64,000 bases of DNA from an uncultured Lachnospiraceae bacterium (GTDB lineage Bacteria > Bacillota > Clostridia > Lachnospirales > Lachnospiraceae), in NCBI GenBank assembly GCA_947173495.1, contig CAMWFQ010000001.1, positions 1 to 64,000 of the forward strand, in the 5' to 3' direction. Every line of letters begins with the position of its first letter. Positions within the stretch are counted from its first letter, which is position 1. Positions 49,249 through 58,227 of this stretch are shown here, piece by piece. The position numbers and the translations under genes were made by a program. The notes under the pieces are model-generated. The model saw nothing but the letters and a program-made list of their open reading frames with translations. It had not been told where the DNA came from and searched no databases.

Positions 49249-50256
49249 CTATTCCTCCATGGGATAATGGCAGGCAACCCAGTGTCCTTTTCCCTTATCT
49301 TCAAACACCGGAACCTCCTGTTTGCATTTCTCCCGGCACTGATAGCATCTGGTATGGAACTTGCATCCGGAAGGAGGATTCACCGGACTGGGAATGTCTC
49401 CCTCCAGCAAAATACGCTCCCGCTTGTCCGCATCCGCCTCGGTAGTCGGGATGGCGGAGAGCAGGGCCCTGGTGTAGGGATGGAGGGTCCTTTCAAAGAG
49501 CTCCTCCGTGGGGGCAAGCTCTACCAGATTGCCCAGATACATCACGCCGATGCGGTCGCTGATATATTTCACCACGCTCAGGTCATGGGTGATGAACAGG
49601 TAAGTCAGATGCTCCTGCTCCTTCAAATCGGAAAGGAGATTCAGGATCTGTGACTGAATGGACACATCCAGAGCCGATACGGCCTCGTCGCACACCACAA
49701 ACCTGGGCTTTAAGGCCAGGCTTCTGGCAATGCCGATTCTCTGGCGCTGCCCGCCGGAAAACTGATGAGGATAGCGACTGAACATATAAGAATCCAGCCC
49801 GCACTTTTTCATCACATCCAGTACATATTCTCTCAGAGCGGGGTCTCCCTTCTTGTATACGCCGTGGGCGGTCAGCCCTTCTCCAATAATCTGTCCCGCC
49901 GTCATTCTGGGATTTAAGGAAGAATAGGGATCCTGGAAGATCAGCTGCAGCTGCCTGCGCAGCTCCCGCATTTTCTCAGGGGGCTGATCCTTCAGTGAGA
50001 CCATCTCTCCATCCTGTTCGTAGAGAATCTCTCCATCTGTCTGGGGATAGAGCTGCAGAATGGTTCTGCCGAAGGTGGATTTTCCGCAGCCGGACTCGCC
50101 CACCAGTCCCAGCGTCTCGCCCTCATAAATATCCAGAGAAATACCGTCGTTGGCTTTTACATATTTCTGTTTCTCACGAAAGCTGCTTTTTTTCACGGGG
50201 AAGTACTGCTTTTCATCCCGGATGCTGAGCAGCACCTTTTTCTTTTCATCCTGCAT
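49249..50256 (-). CDS. oppF: Oligopeptide ABC transporter ATPase (OppF/DppF-type)
   Basis: 335 residues. Walker A GESGCGKST, signature SGGQRQR, Walker B VVCDEAVSALD. The C-terminal extension holds a cysteine cluster CKFHTRCYQCREKC, seen in DppD/OppF-type ATPases and tied there to an Fe-S cluster. Overlaps OppD by eleven bases. Confidence 0.92.
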   Translation of the reverse strand: MQDEKKKVLLSIRDEKQYFPVKKSSFREKQKYVKANDGISLDIYEGETLGLVGESGCGKSTFGRTILQLYPQTDGEILYEQDGEMVSLKDQPPEKMRELRRQLQLIFQDPYSSLNPRMTAGQIIGEGLTAHGVYKKGDPALREYVLDVMKKCGLDSYMFSRYPHQFSGGQRQRIGIARSLALKPRFVVCDEAVSALDVSIQSQILNLLSDLKEQEHLTYLFITHDLSVVKYISDRIGVMYLGNLVELAPTEELFERTLHPYTRALLSAIPTTEADADKRERILLEGDIPSPVNPPSGCKFHTRCYQCREKCKQEVPVFEDKGKGHWVACHYPMEE

Positions 50257-51250
50257 TTGAACGTCTCACCTCCTTCTCTGCATAAAAGCACCTCACCTGA
50301 TGCCCCGGCTCCACTTCCTTAAGCTCCGGCTCCTCCTCCCTGCATTTCTGCTGACAGTATTTGCATCTGGGTGCAAACTTACAGCCTTTCGGAAGATACA
50401 GCGGGTTGGGAACAGCGCCGGGAATGGGATCCAGCTTTTCTCCCTTGGGAGTGTCCAGCCTGGGAATGGAAATCATCAGCCCCTCGGTATAGGGGTGAGA
50501 ATAAGTGCCGTCTGTAAAGATGGTCCTGGCATCCGCCATCTCCACCACCTGTCCGCAGTACATGACCGCCACCTTGTCCGCCATCTCATTGATGACCCCC
50601 AGATCGTGGGTGATAAAGAGAATGGAGGTTCCCAGCTTTTGCTTCATATCGTTCATCAGCTTTAAGATCTGTGCCTGAATGGTCACGTCAAGGGCCGTTG
50701 TGGGTTCATCCGCGATCAGAAGCTTGGGCCGGCAGGAAAGAGCCATGGCGATCATCACCCTCTGGCGCATTCCGCCAGAGAGCTGAAAGGGAAACTGCTT
50801 TGCCACACGCTCCGGATTGGGGATCTTCACCTCTCCCAGCATCCGGACCGCCTCTGCCCTGGCCTGCTTCTTGTCCATTCCCTGATGAATGCGGAAAGCT
50901 TCTCCGATCTGCCTCTCCACCGTAAATACCGGGTTTAGGGAGGTCATGGGCTCCTGGAAGATGACAGAGATCTCGTTTCCCCTGATCTCATACATTTCCT
51001 TCCGGGAGCAGGCAAGCACATTTCTTCCGTTAAACGTGATCTCTCCGCTCTCCACATAGCCGTTGCCGTCCAGCAGACGGATGATGCTCATGGCGGAAAC
51101 GCTCTTGCCGCTTCCGCTCTCTCCCACGATTCCCAGAGTCTCTCCTTCCTCCAGGGAATAAGTCACGTCATTGACCGCCTTCACAATACCGCGCTTTGTC
51201 TTAAAATAGGTATGTAAATGATTCACTTCAAGCAAACTCAATTTCCCCAC
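50246..51250 (-). CDS. oppD: Oligopeptide ABC transporter ATPase (OppD/DppD-type)
   Basis: 334 residues. Walker A GESGSGKS, signature LSGGMRQR, Walker [13 protein letters not shown], and the C-terminal cysteine cluster [14 protein letters not shown]. The GTG at 51250 touches the stop of the permease gene; a TTG at 51241 with AGGTGG ahead of it is an alternative start. Works with OppF. Confidence 0.9.
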
Positions 51251-53059
51251 CTACCTTTCCTTGGATTTCGGATCGATGGCATCTCTGAGTCCATCTCCGA
51301 TACAGTTGATACTTATGGTACAGATCGCCAGCACCAGTGCCGGATATACCCAGCGCCACCAGAAATTTTCGATTACCGTAGCGCTCCGGGCGCCGTTTAA
51401 CATATTTCCCCAGGTAGCATTGGGCTCGGACACACCGAAGCCGATGAAAGAGAGGGACGACTCCGTCAGCATACAGGTGGCAAAATCCAGCGTGGCGTTT
51501 ACGATGATAACGGTAATGATATTGGGAAGGATATGACGGAAGATAATTCCCCATTCCCTGATTCCCAGCGCCTTTGCCGCCGTGACAAACTCCTGCTCTC
51601 TCTCCGCGAGCACACTTCCCCGGACCAGACGTGCAATCCCCGGCCAGGAAAGGAGCCCTAAGATCACCATGATCATAATGATTCTCTGGGTCTCTGAAAT
51701 ATTGTTTCCGATAATTGCCGATAAGATAATGGCAAAGGGCAGAAACGGCAGTGAGGATACGATCTCTGTCAGACGCATCAGGATATTGTCGATCTTCCCG
51801 CCCTTGTAGCCGGAGATACCGCCTATGATCACACCGATGATAGTGGAAATGATTACCGCAATAGCGCCCACCGTCATGGTCATACGGCCGCCCTTTAAGA
51901 GCCTGCGGAAAATGTCTCTCCCGAAATCATCGGTTCCCATAAGGTATCCCTTCAGTCCCCATCCGGTGACTGTTCCGCTCTCATCTATAATGTAACTGCC
52001 GTAATAGCCGGCCGTGATGTCTTTTACCTTTCCTTTTATGTCAGGCACCTTCGTCTGGCCAAAAGTATCATCTCCCCAGGCTTGTACTGTGCCGTCATCC
52101 AGCTGCACCACATAGTGGAACCTGCCGCCCTCGATCGCGGTCACATGTCCCTGCACCTCTTCCTTTATGTTGCGGCTGCCTTTCACATTGTTTCCCCAGA
52201 CATGTACCTGTCCGTCCTCTGTGACAGCAGCAACACTCTCATCTGTGAGAGCCAGATCCACAACCCGGCCCTGGATCTGTTCCGGGATGGCCGTGTAGGC
52301 GTTGGTTTTTGTGGTCAGGGCCGCCACCTCGCCATCCTTTGTCAACGCCATGACAATGTCCGTGTTGGCCACGAATTTCTGAATATTTCCCTGAACCTCC
52401 TTGGGGATCTTGATATCGATCAGAAAATCATTCCCCCAGTTATAGAGTCTTCCCGACTCCGTAAGGGCCAGAGAGATCTGATATCCTGCGTAGACCTCCT
52501 TGACGGTTTCCCCCATGCGGAGCTCCAGGGGAATGGAGGCAAGGCCCATGCGGTCATTTCCCCAGGTGACCACCTCGCCTGCATCATTCAGGGCCACCAC
52601 ATGATCCAGACCTGCCGAAACCTGTACCAGACTTCCCATATCCGCAGGAAGCTTTTTCAGCTTATTGGTGGGAAACCTGCCCCATTCATAGACATTCCCC
52701 TTTTCATCAATCCCCACGGAAAAAGTACTTCCCAAAGACACCTGCCTGGCCTTTTTCTGCAGGCCGGAGGGAACATCCAGCATGCCGAAGCCCGGTCCCA
52801 CATTGGCCTGGGTCACGTCCTGATAATACATATCGATGGGCAGAAAGAAGGGCAACACCACACAGCACATAAAGATAAACAGGAAACAGATCACTCCTGT
52901 CATAGCCACTTTATCCTGCACAAAACTGCGGAATACCATCTGGATAGGGGTGAGGATCTCCTCCTGCTCCTCTGTGAGCGCTCCGCCGAAGACCATCCTC
53001 TGCGCGGCCTTCCCCACCGTCGATTTTTCTCTTTTTTTCTTCGTGTTTTTATCTGCCAT
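51251..53059 (-). CDS. oppC: OppC-type peptide permease with an inserted RCC1-like beta-propeller
   Basis: 602 residues, about twice the usual OppC length. Residues 1-50 are cytoplasmic and helix 1 is about 51-74. The OppC core resumes at MGTDDFGRDIFRRLL (374 on) with five more helices and the EAA loop FVTAAKALGIREWGIIFRHI. Between them, about residues 95-372 (52777-51944) hold seven RCC1-type repeats about 40 residues apart, with repeat starts near 107, 147, 189, 229, 269, 308 and 348. Each has the pattern AG..H/F.xALxxxGxVxxWG. By topology the insert faces outward. It is in frame, with no sign of assembly error. GGAGG-like AGGGGCC precedes ATG 53059. Confidence 0.9.
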   Translation of the reverse strand: MADKNTKKKREKSTVGKAAQRMVFGGALTEEQEEILTPIQMVFRSFVQDKVAMTGVICFLFIFMCCVVLPFFLPIDMYYQDVTQANVGPGFGMLDVPSGLQKKARQVSLGSTFSVGIDEKGNVYEWGRFPTNKLKKLPADMGSLVQVSAGLDHVVALNDAGEVVTWGNDRMGLASIPLELRMGETVKEVYAGYQISLALTESGRLYNWGNDFLIDIKIPKEVQGNIQKFVANTDIVMALTKDGEVAALTTKTNAYTAIPEQIQGRVVDLALTDESVAAVTEDGQVHVWGNNVKGSRNIKEEVQGHVTAIEGGRFHYVVQLDDGTVQAWGDDTFGQTKVPDIKGKVKDITAGYYGSYIIDESGTVTGWGLKGYLMGTDDFGRDIFRRLLKGGRMTMTVGAIAVIISTIIGVIIGGISGYKGGKIDNILMRLTEIVSSLPFLPFAIILSAIIGNNISETQRIIMIMVILGLLSWPGIARLVRGSVLAEREQEFVTAAKALGIREWGIIFRHILPNIITVIIVNATLDFATCMLTESSLSFIGFGVSEPNATWGNMLNGARSATVIENFWWRWVYPALVLAICTISINCIGDGLRDAIDPKSKER

Positions 53060-53067
53060 GGCCCCTC

Positions 53068-54051
53068 CTAGTTCTCCAGCCTTACCCTCGGGTCAACCAG
53101 GGTATAGGCGATATCCATGATCACATTTCCCACCAGAGACAAAATCACATAAAACATCTGCATGGCAAGCACCACTGCAAAGTCTCTCTGATTTAAGCCT
53201 GTGATCATCATCTTTCCAAGTCCATCCCACAAGAAGATGGTCTCTATCACGATGGAGCCGCCGAAGAGCCCGATCAGCCACCATGTGGTCACCGTCACGA
53301 TGGGGATCAAAGCGTTGCGGAAGGCATGGATGTAAATAACCACCTTCTCCTTAAGTCCCTTGGAACGTGCGGTTTTTATATAGTCCATACGAAGGGCATC
53401 GATCATGGAAGCGCGCACATAGCGGGTAATGCTTCCGATCCCCGATACGGACATGACAAGTACCGGCAGTGCCATATGCTTTGCCACATCCAGCGCCGCT
53501 GCCATCCCCGTGCCGTTAAATCCTGCGGTTTTGGCACCGCTTATGGGAAATAACGGAATCTTTATGGCAAAGGCATAAATGGCAAGCAATGCTATGACAA
53601 AGCTTGGTACACTATATCCTACGATCGTTACAACCTGAACTGCCTTATCGAAAACACTGTTCTTTTTTACCGCCTGAGTAATCCCCAGAGGTATTGAAAT
53701 AACAAACACCAGGAGCATGGAAAAGATATTCAGCATAACTGTATTTCTCATGGGGACTCCCACTACATTTTTGACCGGCTTTCTGTATTCCGTGGAATAC
53801 CCGAAATCACCGGTAAGCATGTTGGTGATCCACTTCACATACTGAACCGGCAGAGGCTCATCCAGTCCCAGCTGCGCCCTTATGGTATCATACTGCTGCT
53901 GGTAGACCTCCGGCTTGACATTATCTCCCATCATCATCCGCACCGGATCTCCCGGCAGGGATTTGTAAATGGTAAACATTAATATGGATATGATAAAGAA
54001 TACAAATATGATATATACAAATCTTTTTAACAGGTACCTTCCCTTGCGCAT
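53068..54051 (-). CDS. oppB: Peptide ABC permease (OppB/DppB-type)
   Basis: 327 residues from ATG 54051, with GAGG nine bases upstream; ATG 54066 is possible. Helix 1 near 11-31, PGDPVRMMMGDN, and the EAA loop YIKTARSKGLKEKVVIYIHA. Eight bases separate it from the oppC-type gene. Confidence 0.9.
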   Translation of the reverse strand: MRKGRYLLKRFVYIIFVFFIISILMFTIYKSLPGDPVRMMMGDNVKPEVYQQQYDTIRAQLGLDEPLPVQYVKWITNMLTGDFGYSTEYRKPVKNVVGVPMRNTVMLNIFSMLLVFVISIPLGITQAVKKNSVFDKAVQVVTIVGYSVPSFVIALLAIYAFAIKIPLFPISGAKTAGFNGTGMAAALDVAKHMALPVLVMSVSGIGSITRYVRASMIDALRMDYIKTARSKGLKEKVVIYIHAFRNALIPIVTVTTWWLIGLFGGSIVIETIFLWDGLGKMMITGLNQRDFAVVLAMQMFYVILSLVGNVIMDIAYTLVDPRVRLEN

Positions 54052-54246
54052 TCCTAAAAACCTCATCCCCCTTCCGTGTGATCGGGCAGGGGAGACTTTT
54101 TCCCCTGCTCGCCGCTTTAGCGGCATATTCCTCTGTGCGGGCCTGTGCATAAAGGGGACTGCGCATAAATGCACAATCCCCTGCAGCTGTGTGTCAAACT
54201 CTGAACTGTAAGAAGTAGTTACTGTGAATTGTAACAGAGTATTATT
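54052..54246 (-). other. Structured gap between the peptide receptor and OppB genes
   Basis: CGAGCAGGGGA pairs with TCCCCTGCCCG near 54112-54083, with a TTTTT in the loop rather than after the stem. A second repeat, AGGGGA/TCCCCT, is near 54180-54149. As in the gtfA operon, this lies right after the receptor gene and may hold down downstream expression. Confidence 0.5.
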
Positions 54247-56202
54247 CTATTCAGATACCCACGCATCAATCACCGCCGAGGACCAGTCCCAAATGGAAGA
54301 GGTATCCCAATCCTGCAGCTTGTTGCTGTAGAAATCATGATATTCGTCAGAGTAAAGCGGAATATCCGGAAGCTGTTTGTTCCACTCCATGATAAAGGCT
54401 CTCCAGTTCTCAAGCCAGGCGTCCTTGTCTTCATAAGGAATGCTCTTCATGGAAGCGGTCACGCTTGCCATATCCTCATTGATAATCCAGTTGCTGTTGT
54501 AGCCGCCGCCCATGTACTGCTCATCTGTTCCGTAATAGTACCAGGGGGAATCGGCAGTTGCAAATCCGGTTGCCAGGTTGTACATGTTGTAGATCTTCTC
54601 ACCCTTATGGTTCATGGCCTCCTGCAGAGTAGGGAAGTCAACGCTGGTGGATTTCAGCTCCATACCGGCCTCCTCCATTGCCTCGGGAAGCATGGTGCTG
54701 AGCAGCTCGGAAACAGGGTTTCCTTCGGTATTACACCACTCGATGGTTAAGGGCTTTAACTCTCCGTCCACATCCTTGTAGCGCAGTCCGTCGCCGTCTT
54801 TATACTCTTCGCCGTTTGCATTCAGATTCCATCCGTCTGCTGCCAGGATTTCCTTGGCGGTATCAATGTTCTTGTCATATGTATTTAAGTTCTCGTCGAT
54901 CCAGTCCTTGGATTCCATATACTCCCACTGAGCCAGACCGTATCTTGCATGTACGATGGAAGCATATCCGCCGCTGTGCTGTCTCGCGAACTCGTTGCGG
55001 TCCAGACAGTAGGCGATGGCCTGACGCACGCTGGTGGAATCGGTGGGGAACTGGCTGCAGTCAAAGCAGATCTTTCCGTAACCGTTTCTTAAGTAAGTAT
55101 GCTTCTGGGCAACTCCCTTGTCCACCAGATCAAGACCTGCCTCGATGCTGGTTCCGCCGGAGATGGAAAACAGAAGATCAACCGTGCCTGCCTCCAGCTC
55201 GTTTAACTGGGTGTCGTTGGAAACGGTCTTCACGATCAGCTTCTCGATCAGAGGCTTATGTCCGCGGTAGTCTCCCAGGAATTTGTCGTTTACCACATAG
55301 GTTGCCTGTCTGCTGGATGCATCATAGTTATCAAGCAGATAAGGGCCGCAGACCACCTTGGGATTGTAACGATAGCCTGTATCTGTATTATTGATGGTCT
55401 CAAGCAGCACGTCGGTTGAAAAATCGCCGCTGATGGATACGCCATCCTCGGAATCCACCATTTCACATCCCGGAGCAATCACTGCCATGGGCCTGGGCGT
55501 AATACCGGCATAGTAAATATCATAGTGAAAAGGAAGCTCCTCCGCTGCTACCGTAACGGAAAAGTTCTTCTCGTCGATCAGGCGCAGCCCCTTGAGATTC
55601 TCGGTCTCGCCGGCATTAAACTCTTTATATCCATCCAGATGAGTATAGGCTGTGGCCGAATAGTTATCCACCCCCATCATCTCCGGAGAAGACTCCAGGT
55701 AAGCTGCAAACACATAATCCTGAGCGGTAACCGGAGAACCATCCGACCACACGAGACCGTCATTTAAGGTGATGGTATAGGTCTTGGTTCCGTCTTCATT
55801 CTCGGTCTCCTCACAGTTTGCCACTACCGTGGGATCGATCTCAAAGGTACCCTCCTTGCTGTAGATAACAGTACCATACCCGTGAATCAACGCATAAGCC
55901 TTGTAGTTGGTTGCATTGTTGTTGAAGTCCGGATCATAAAAATCATTGTCCATATCCGTGGTGGTTCCGATGATCAGCTGTCCTGTGGGTGCATCCGGCT
56001 TTGCAGCCTGTGCGCTTTCCGAACCTTCTGTCTGATCCGCCTCATCTGTCTCCGCTTCCGTATCGGAAGCTTCTTCCTCGGAGGTACTGGTTGTATCCTC
56101 CGCATTGTTTGTCACCGTATCATTCCCGCTTCCGCCGCAGGCAGCCAGAGATACGGTCATTGCTGCCGCAAGCAGAACAGACAGCAATTTCTTCCTCTTC
56201 AT
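54247..56202 (-). CDS. oppA: Peptide-binding lipoprotein, family 5 (OppA-like)
   Basis: 651 residues. Lipobox SLAAC (Cys22), a Thr/Glu/Asp-rich linker to about 70, then an SBP_bac_5 domain with VWSDGSPVTAQDYVFA and VRQAIAYCLDRNEFA, typical of OppA. It captures oligopeptides for the OppBCDF proteins encoded downstream. The promoter is at 56399-56370. Confidence 0.92.
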   Translation of the reverse strand: MKRKKLLSVLLAAAMTVSLAACGGSGNDTVTNNAEDTTSTSEEEASDTEAETDEADQTEGSESAQAAKPDAPTGQLIIGTTTDMDNDFYDPDFNNNATNYKAYALIHGYGTVIYSKEGTFEIDPTVVANCEETENEDGTKTYTITLNDGLVWSDGSPVTAQDYVFAAYLESSPEMMGVDNYSATAYTHLDGYKEFNAGETENLKGLRLIDEKNFSVTVAAEELPFHYDIYYAGITPRPMAVIAPGCEMVDSEDGVSISGDFSTDVLLETINNTDTGYRYNPKVVCGPYLLDNYDASSRQATYVVNDKFLGDYRGHKPLIEKLIVKTVSNDTQLNELEAGTVDLLFSISGGTSIEAGLDLVDKGVAQKHTYLRNGYGKICFDCSQFPTDSTSVRQAIAYCLDRNEFARQHSGGYASIVHARYGLAQWEYMESKDWIDENLNTYDKNIDTAKEILAADGWNLNANGEEYKDGDGLRYKDVDGELKPLTIEWCNTEGNPVSELLSTMLPEAMEEAGMELKSTSVDFPTLQEAMNHKGEKIYNMYNLATGFATADSPWYYYGTDEQYMGGGYNSNWIINEDMASVTASMKSIPYEDKDAWLENWRAFIMEWNKQLPDIPLYSDEYHDFYSNKLQDWDTSSIWDWSSAVIDAWVSE

Positions 56203-56468: not shown

Positions 56469-58172
56469 TTACAGCAAACCTGTCAGATCATAACCTTTAA
56501 GCCATCCCTCTGCAGATGCGCATACCTCTCTTAAGCACTTCTCTTCGAAAGGACTTTCCAGCCCCGCCTTTTCAAGAAGCTCCGTAAATACCCTGCTGCC
56601 GCCCTGCTTCGTGTAGGCCATATAACGCTCCCAGGCCGCCCTAGGGTCTTTCTGAATCAGCGCCCAGAACTGAAGCGCCACCGTCTGTGCCAGACAGTAA
56701 TCAATATAATAGAAGGGACGGGTATAAATATGGTGCTGTCTCTGCCAGGCCATGCCCTCCCCGTATACCGGAATCCCGCCATCCAGACGGATCCATGGCA
56801 TATAGATCCCCAGAAGCTCTTTCCACGTCTCATGACGCTGCGACGGCGTCATATCCGGCTTCTCATAGACAATATGCTGGAAATGATCCACCATGGTGCC
56901 GTAGGGAATGAAGGTCAGCGCGCCGGACAAATGGGTATACTTAAACTTCCGGGTATCGGCTCCGAAGAATCCTTCCGCCCAGGGCCATGCGAAAAATTCC
57001 ATGGACATGGAATGAACCTCGCAGGCCTCCAGAGAAGGCCAGGTCAGCTCCATGGGCACCCGCTCCCGGTTCATCCATGCCGCAAAAGCATGGCCGGCCT
57101 CATGGGTAACCACCTCCACATCATGAGCCGTACCATTGAAATTGGCAAAAATAAACGGCACTTCATAATCCGGAATACTGGTACAATAGCCGCCTCCGGT
57201 CTTTCCTTCCGTAGAGAGCACATCCAGAAGCTCACCTTTCAGCATGGTGCGGAAGAATTCTCCCGTTTCCGGGCTCAGCTCATCATAGAATTTTCTTCCC
57301 TGGGAGAGGATCTCCGCAGGCGTTCCCTGGGGCCGCGGGTTGCCGGATCTGAACTCCAGCGCATTGTCTGCAAAGCTCATGGGATATTCCTTTCCCAGAC
57401 GCTTTGCCTGCTCCCGGTAGATCTCGTCCGCTACCGGAACCAGATACTTCACCACCGCCCTGCGGAAACGCTCCACATCCTCTTTGGTATAACAGTTTCG
57501 CTCCATCCGATAATATCCAAGCACTGTATAGCCATCAAATCCCAGTTTTCTTCCCATCCGGTCCCGCAGATGAACCAGCTTATCATAGTATTCATCCAGC
57601 TCTCCCAGATGCTCCCTGTACCACTGCCCTTCCGCCTTCCATGCGCGAAGACGCCGCTCATCGTCATTGTCCGTCTTAAAAGGTCCCATCTGGGAAAGCG
57701 TATAGCTTCCTCCCTCAAAGGGAATCCGGGCCGAGGCAAGAAGTTTCTGGTACTCCTGGCAGAGCCGCTTTTCCTCCTGCAGCTCCCCGATGATTTCCGG
57801 CGAAAAGGTCTTAAGCCGGATCTCCTCGTTTTTGAACATCAGATCCCCATATTCTTTTTCGAAATCCGGGCGGAAAGGGCTCTCCAGAAGAGCCGTCGTC
57901 CATGCCTGCTGGTCCTCCTGCAGCTGCGGAGCCGCCTCATTCCAGAAATTCATCTCCGTCTCATAAAACTCATCTCTTGTATCAATATCATAACGGATTT
58001 TTGCCAGATTATGTTCTGTCTGTATATGCCTCTGCAGCTCGTCCATCTCCAAAAAAACGGCTTTCGCCGTCCCGTAATCCTCCGCACTCTTAAAACGCTC
58101 TGTCAGCCCCGCAAGCTGTCCTTTCACTTCCTTAAGATCCGGACGCCTGTAAGGCATTTCTGAAAATTTCAC
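56469..58172 (-). CDS. M3 family oligoendopeptidase
   Basis: 567 residues from a GTG at 58172, which has AAAGGAG eight bases upstream; ATG 58190 has only a weak site. Zinc motif HEAGH in VVTHEAGHAFAAW with downstream SLEACEVHSMSMEFF. Close to the Clostridial PepF-like M3 group. Sitting just upstream of the opp operon, it probably cleaves the imported peptides in the cytoplasm. Confidence 0.88.
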   Translation of the reverse strand: MKFSEMPYRRPDLKEVKGQLAGLTERFKSAEDYGTAKAVFLEMDELQRHIQTEHNLAKIRYDIDTRDEFYETEMNFWNEAAPQLQEDQQAWTTALLESPFRPDFEKEYGDLMFKNEEIRLKTFSPEIIGELQEEKRLCQEYQKLLASARIPFEGGSYTLSQMGPFKTDNDDERRLRAWKAEGQWYREHLGELDEYYDKLVHLRDRMGRKLGFDGYTVLGYYRMERNCYTKEDVERFRRAVVKYLVPVADEIYREQAKRLGKEYPMSFADNALEFRSGNPRPQGTPAEILSQGRKFYDELSPETGEFFRTMLKGELLDVLSTEGKTGGGYCTSIPDYEVPFIFANFNGTAHDVEVVTHEAGHAFAAWMNRERVPMELTWPSLEACEVHSMSMEFFAWPWAEGFFGADTRKFKYTHLSGALTFIPYGTMVDHFQHIVYEKPDMTPSQRHETWKELLGIYMPWIRLDGGIPVYGEGMAWQRQHHIYTRPFYYIDYCLAQTVALQFWALIQKDPRAAWERYMAYTKQGGSRVFTELLEKAGLESPFEEKCLREVCASAEGWLKGYDLTGLL

Positions 58173-58227
58173 TTTTTCTGCTCCTTTCATTTCCGCTCTG
58201 TTTTGACGCTGATCCCTCCTGCCCGGA

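Follow-up and report, generated by a model that had tools for sequence, protein, structure and literature searches.

A predicted RCC1-type propeller domain recurs in the peptide permease subunit OppC of Clostridia and spirochaetes

The DNA analysed here (the window) is a 64,000-nucleotide stretch of contig CAMWFQ010000001.1 from an uncultured Lachnospiraceae bacterium (GCA_947173495.1), which carries on its minus strand an oligopeptide (Opp) importer operon in the order OppA-OppB-OppC-OppD-OppF. The permease subunit OppC of this operon contains a domain of the RCC1/BLIP-II type, which is predicted to form a seven-bladed propeller just outside the membrane, in the extracytoplasmic loop between the transmembrane helices TM1 and TM2. 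Propeller-bearing OppC is a real design that recurs in relatives and not an artefact or a one-off. Opp importers and propellers of the BLIP-II type are each known, and among the literature matches listed their combination looks undescribed so far.

The OppC propeller and its recurrence in relatives

In Pfam searches the OppC frame, which has zero internal stops, matches OppC_N at residues 37-89 (2.8e-10, 40.4 bits, cut-off 23.9) and BPD_transp_1 at residues 409-599 (3.5e-35, 121.8 bits, cut-off 26.4), as well as RCC1_2 in five stretches (3.4e-35, 119.4 bits, cut-off 22) and WD40_RLD in three, the best of which spans residues 99-247 (1.5e-44, above its cut-off). Together with the OppC fold match, the Pfam families and the open frame confirm what an earlier note on this DNA had read from its letters, namely a domain of about 280 residues inside an otherwise normal OppC; the bounds given there (51944-52777, residues 95-372) are better placed at approximately residues 90-371 (51947-52792). 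All five RCC1_2 matches found in the genome at E ≤ 0.001 fall inside this frame, and no change in composition or GC content was seen at the insert edges in the window. The NCBIfam model Opp4C scores 321 bits on OppC versus a cut-off of 350, and among the matches listed no named NCBIfam subfamily exceeds its cut-off for OppC, OppB or OppA, so no named OppC subfamily is claimed.

Structure prediction, the check proposed in the earlier note, bears out a seven-bladed propeller of the RCC1 type, with seven sets of three strands at residues 104-127, 144-167, 186-209, 226-247, 266-289, 306-329 and 345-368. The seven repeats thus stand, but the tryptophan ascribed to every one of them is present in six of the seven only, as blade 4 has L248 at this position. 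Across an alignment of 96 sequences (the window, 15 others and 80 loci from GTDB; effective number 42.7) this position is Leu, Met, Thr or Ile throughout and Trp in 0 of 96, while the Trp of the other six blades is retained in 92 to 96. A fold search with the model returns BLIP-II as the nearest fold to the propeller (2.0 Å over 256 residues, 27% identity), with model residues 90-360 aligned to BLIP-II 51-311; BLIP-II, RCC1 and UVR8 rank high in the fold-search lists. By eye, residues 90-103 resemble an inter-blade segment, and this N-terminal stretch may complete blade 7 to give a closed ring. The placement of the insert in the TM1-TM2 loop agrees with the earlier note's view that this loop faces the outside, and the same loop is periplasmic in solved Dpp.

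A scan of GTDB yielded 324 pattern hits, of which 314 were also matched by the propeller in tblastn (E ≤ 1e-3), and the best 80 of these 314 candidates were examined. All 80 have an intact open reading frame of 582-625 residues and, by NCBI names, belong to Bacillota (74, comprising 71 Clostridia, 2 Tissierellia and 1 without class) and Spirochaetota (6), with Roseburia, Gemmiger and Coprococcus comes among the carriers. Within the family to which the window belongs, 16 of 397 genomes, its own included, have full-length matches (E ≤ 7.3e-123; three single-contig), and in a sample of the class 17 of 391 genomes, again including its own, have a match at E ≤ 1e-85. In 35 further genomes from the window's genus no match is better than 2e-68, and those listed are confined to the permease core. 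The Roseburia records hold OppC copies at 78-82% identity, despite the lack of a full-length match in these 35 genomes. Such patchy presence would fit either acquisition by lateral transfer or loss on several occasions.

In the aligned set the length of the insert ranges over 274-320 residues (median 281). Its ratio of non-synonymous to synonymous divergence (dN/dS) is 0.047-0.099 in five of seven pairs, the other two being saturated, and that of the core is 0.021-0.058 over the seven; in the sole pair with low dS (L065-L067, dS 0.38) the values are 0.060 for the propeller versus 0.058 for the core. These ratios indicate that the propeller is under purifying selection. Its rate of evolution exceeds that of the core (mean tree distance 1.22 vs 0.44). 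In a tree of the permease core, built by a quick method from 91 of 145 rows, 42 of them RCC1 rows left after thinning, the RCC1 proteins form one side of one branch (98*), with the caveat that some long branches, including that of L049, come together. In a full-length tree (FastTree, long branches flagged), sequences from Lachnospiraceae and Oscillospiraceae are interspersed with one another and the six spirochaetes group with three clostridial metagenome-assembled genomes, both as expected under lateral transfer.

Candidate functions of the propeller

MalF-P2 is a big permease domain of the maltose importer that binds the receptor MalE. By analogy, the favoured though tentative reading is that the propeller on OppC acts as an extracytoplasmic docking platform holding OppA and works like MalF-P2. 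Holding the receptor and gating entry, two roles proposed in the earlier note, are both compatible with the data. Judged from strand order, the chain enters the insert (from residue 90) and leaves it (past W367-G368) on the a-b loop side of the blades, so that this face would look toward the permease mouth. The propeller would be a platform for binding proteins where the pump opens to the outside, with its a-b loop face turned back to that mouth, and might grip OppA, which is lipid-anchored, or else the interface of OppA with OppB, and keep the receptor near. It could also aid OppA docking and peptide release on the OppC-OppF half, opposite the scoop region of OppB. In a study of the E. coli importer Dpp, the scoop motif of DppB enters the DppA cleft, its region being pseudo-equivalent to the OppC insert site (PMC12136057). 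Beside the 80 RCC1-type OppC genes lie OppB in 80, OppD in 79, OppA in 77 and OppF in 76 cases, where the missing OppD (L122) and OppF (L069, L122, L137, L142) lie at contig ends, as does missing OppA in L125 and L143. As OppA adjoins 77 of the 80, the receptor has not been replaced by the propeller.

The residues that set the a-b loops of this family apart are D152, H153, Q194, R313, H315, Y352 and Y353, joined by Y356 just past the loop, as scored over the 96 sequences by a measure that sets blade against blade and makes conservation look stronger than it is. Position 354 is Gln in most relatives and Gly in the window. Conservation of the a-b loops is strong on blades 1, 2, 3, 6 and 7 and weak on blades 4 and 5, and these loops are more conserved than the D-G turns (p 0.012), the only contrast between faces that was found. 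For BLIP-II, a published list gives the residues contacting two beta-lactamases, 16 of them shared and two specific to TEM-1 (PMC10817188). Of the shared contacts, 15 were placed by hand on the aligned letters with an offset of 38, and all 15 fall at a-b loop positions +1/+2 or +18 to +22 after, and of the TEM-1-specific residues Phe74 fits these positions and Thr57 does not. The conserved a-b residues D152, Q194 and R313 differ from the BLIP-II contact residues, while the contact loops are the same. The conservation of the a-b loops is a hint, though not one that names it, of a partner close to where the propeller is attached.

Several observations weigh against OppA docking. Taken as a whole, the a-b face with its a-b and post-W-G loops shows no higher conservation than the other one (p 0.46). 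Mirror-tree partial correlations of evolutionary distance over 67 complete operons favour OppA (0.21 with the propeller) and OppB (0.22) over OppD (0.09), but are weak, and they are higher with the propeller's own core (0.34) and with OppF (0.32, with one more control variable), so that this comparison does not decide the partner, and the support from conservation and covariation together is weak. The conserved patch could equally pack against OppC or OppB itself. OppA linkers appear by eye no longer than in other Opp operons; longer linkers spanning the propeller had been considered and were rejected, the linkers looking alike (about 20-60 residues) in RCC1-type, long-loop and other operons. 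One internal RCC1-type OppB-C-D-F operon (L114:8632-14281), preceded by what we take to be a spoVAD-like gene, has no OppA gene beside it.

It is unlikely, if worth weighing, that the propeller binds substrate or another small ligand, as a pre-binding or filter domain that passes peptides to OppA or gates the pore. Propeller funnels are often ligand-binding, and the family-specific residues R313, Q194, Y352, Y353 and the Gln at 354 (Gly in the window) would suit such a role, as would the absence of an adjacent OppA in L114 and the presence of an M3 oligoendopeptidase at least 39% identical to that of the window near 12 of the 80 loci, some on short contigs. Against this, OppA adjoins nearly all of the loci, and the BLIP-II, RCC1 and UVR8 proteins of the fold lists are protein binders. 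Binding of host peptides, as by an adhesin, seems unlikely given the short linkers at the membrane and the spirochaetes that share the design, where the domain would be periplasmic.

It is rather doubtful that the propeller binds a third envelope protein, such as a penicillin-binding protein or a peptidase, siting the importer where peptides are freed. Propellers of the RCC1 type often bind other proteins. The targets of BLIP-II are class A beta-lactamases, and it has been proposed to take part in remodelling of the cell wall (PMC9146315). However, only Opp genes recur throughout the loci among the genes compared (the Opp genes of the window, the M3 peptidase and three neighbours), and D152, Q194 and R313 are not the residues of the BLIP-II contacts.

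That the propeller has no specific partner and serves passively to space or stabilise is distinctly improbable. Other OppC proteins bear unrelated long inserts at the same place, which indicates that the site tolerates domains, and the propeller is the faster-evolving part of the protein. Yet the RCC1 rows lie on one side of one branch and share family-specific conserved residues, and the narrow range of insert lengths (274-320 residues), the six retained tryptophans and a dN/dS of 0.06 at an unsaturated dS of 0.38 do not fit a mere spacer. An assembly join, pseudogene or chance repeat has next to no probability, as no supporting point was found, the intact frames in all 80 GTDB loci and 16 of 397 family genomes together with Pfam scores above cut-off rule it out, and a join at the insert edges, the objection foreseen in the earlier note, is not credible.

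The operon and the helical insert in OppF

The features of the operon are collected in Table 1. OppB is 368 residues long as listed and often 327-335 residues in relatives, and its true start may lie downstream of the listed GTG. The nearest solved relatives of OppA include peptide-binding proteins (9p48 OppA, 6.6e-25), and the neighbouring M3 peptidase exceeds its own NCBIfam cut-off; together, OppA relatives and this neighbour suggest oligopeptides as the substrate of the importer.

Table 1. Features of the propeller-bearing Opp operon in the window, and OppF genes with a helical insert in other loci
Feature	Coordinates	Strand	Details and basis
OppC with RCC1/BLIP-II-type propeller insert	51251..53059	-	602 residues; ORF (open reading frame) list, Pfam, structure model
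OppC basic N-terminus and TM1 (residues 1-75), start of OppC_N	52835..53059	-	hydropathy peak 55-73
Predicted seven-bladed propeller insert (residues 90-371 of OppC)	51947..52792	-	Pfam, model and alignment
Conserved permease core (residues 372-602): GTDDFGRD and remaining TM helices, BPD_transp_1	51254..51946	-	
OppB	53068..54174	-	GTG start as listed, 368 residues
OppA, family 5 solute-binding protein	54247..56202	-	lipobox-like LAAC and long acidic linker, both by eye
OppD ATPase	50246..51250	-	Pfam
OppF ATPase, short form lacking the helical insert seen in other RCC1-OppC lineages	49249..50256	-	
M3-family oligoendopeptidase, upstream of OppA	56469..58190	-	Pfam, NCBIfam
OppF with helical insert	L107:12590-14158, L114:12662-14278, L121:12563-14032, L144:12588-14102, and 26 further loci		

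In many other RCC1 operons OppF is enlarged to approximately 430-560 residues, as the stretch from Walker A to the Q-loop carries an insert. Among 74 OppF-like genes of the scanned RCC1 loci and the window, the gap between these motifs is 45-46 residues in 45 and 143-248 residues in 29, and it is 41 residues in four OppF of non-RCC1 loci. With one such insert as query, the 391 genomes of the class sample give 12 matches at E ≤ 1e-30, all 12 in an RCC1-OppC operon with OppD in between, and no insert was detected away from RCC1-OppC in this sample. The insert is likewise found in all ten further carriers inspected, comprising the four remaining ones of the class sample and six members from the family search, deep tree branches among them, and hence in 16 of 16 class-sample carriers other than the window's genome. 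The OppF of the window and of its clade lacks it. On the full-length tree the state of OppF changes once, with the window's clade on the short side, as mapped on the 76 of 96 rows that had a state; the 46 short states among them were taken from locus ranges, and not every one was measured. A model of the insert has four long helices (residues 101-254) with predicted local distance difference test (pLDDT) blocks of 84-96, and the ATPase core of the same model is poor (mean pLDDT 65.5 over the whole).

In the E. coli Dpp study DppC pairs with DppF (PMC12136057), so that propeller and OppF insert would share one half of the pump. An ancestral RCC1-type importer that was a two-sided sensor, or 'transceptor', with the OppC propeller outside and a helical antenna on OppF inside, is an improbable possibility. 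If it were true, the state of the receptor or ligand outside would be relayed via the transport cycle to a cytoplasmic partner, and in the clade of the window the antenna would have been lost and the outer half retained. As this clade keeps the propeller without the OppF insert, the propeller does not require it. The 30 loci with the helical insert versus 45 with a normal-gap OppF, all beside propeller-OppC, constitute a natural experiment.

Comparison with known importers and propellers

The gene set A-B-C-D-F of the window is the same as in E. coli, and the GTD..GRD region is shared with E. coli OppBCDF/DppABCDF and M. tuberculosis OppABCD/DppABCD (8z21, 8z1v-8z1z, 8j5q-t, 8wd9). The OppC fold is common to the window and the solved chains, with 277 of 278 residues of 8z21_B matched. 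In contrast to the 602 residues of the window's OppC, the solved OppC/DppC chains have 287-302 residues and thus no domain of about 280 residues in their TM1-TM2 loop. Like the propeller of the window, BLIP-II (1jtd, 3qhy, 3qi0) has seven three-stranded RCC1-type blades, but it is a free secreted inhibitor, whereas the propeller is a permease insert whose binding loops conserve other residues.

Other OppC proteins of the same family and genus (L009-L013, L051-L062, L055, L056, L064) carry an insert of approximately 200-400 residues at the same TM1-TM2 place. They have no RCC1 repeats and stand on other branches of the permease-core tree than the RCC1 rows, and in the four whose insert was scanned (L009, L013, L055, L056) no Pfam family exceeds its cut-off there. 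By eye, these long loops (L009:640-2193, L013:1498-3186, L055:391-2199, L056:55-2199, L064:1501-3543) consist of helix-hairpin repeats in varying number, and the OppA open frames adjoining them encode 768-845 residues. One of the 19 tree rows labelled 'other_long', a 518-residue OppC-like protein (L134:17186-18739, minus strand), was rejected as a long-insert OppC, as its OppC_N lies at residues 258-291 and its extra part is N-terminal to that domain and not in the loop.

Like the earlier note, which knew of no peptide importer of such design, we found none described among the literature matches listed, nor any Opp permease or ATP-binding cassette (ABC) transporter with an RCC1 or propeller domain, most subscription papers lying outside the coverage. 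Opp importers are textbook systems, and this variant, which occurs in gut-associated Clostridia and spirochaetes, makes it possible to test directly whether a dedicated permease domain can serve peptide importers to hold the receptor. The likeness to MalF-P2 lies in a large extracytoplasmic domain on one permease subunit, on the receptor side, and is claimed only in the sense that the propeller may work like it. MalF-P2 belongs to a sugar importer and sits in another loop, with another fold, of another permease family.
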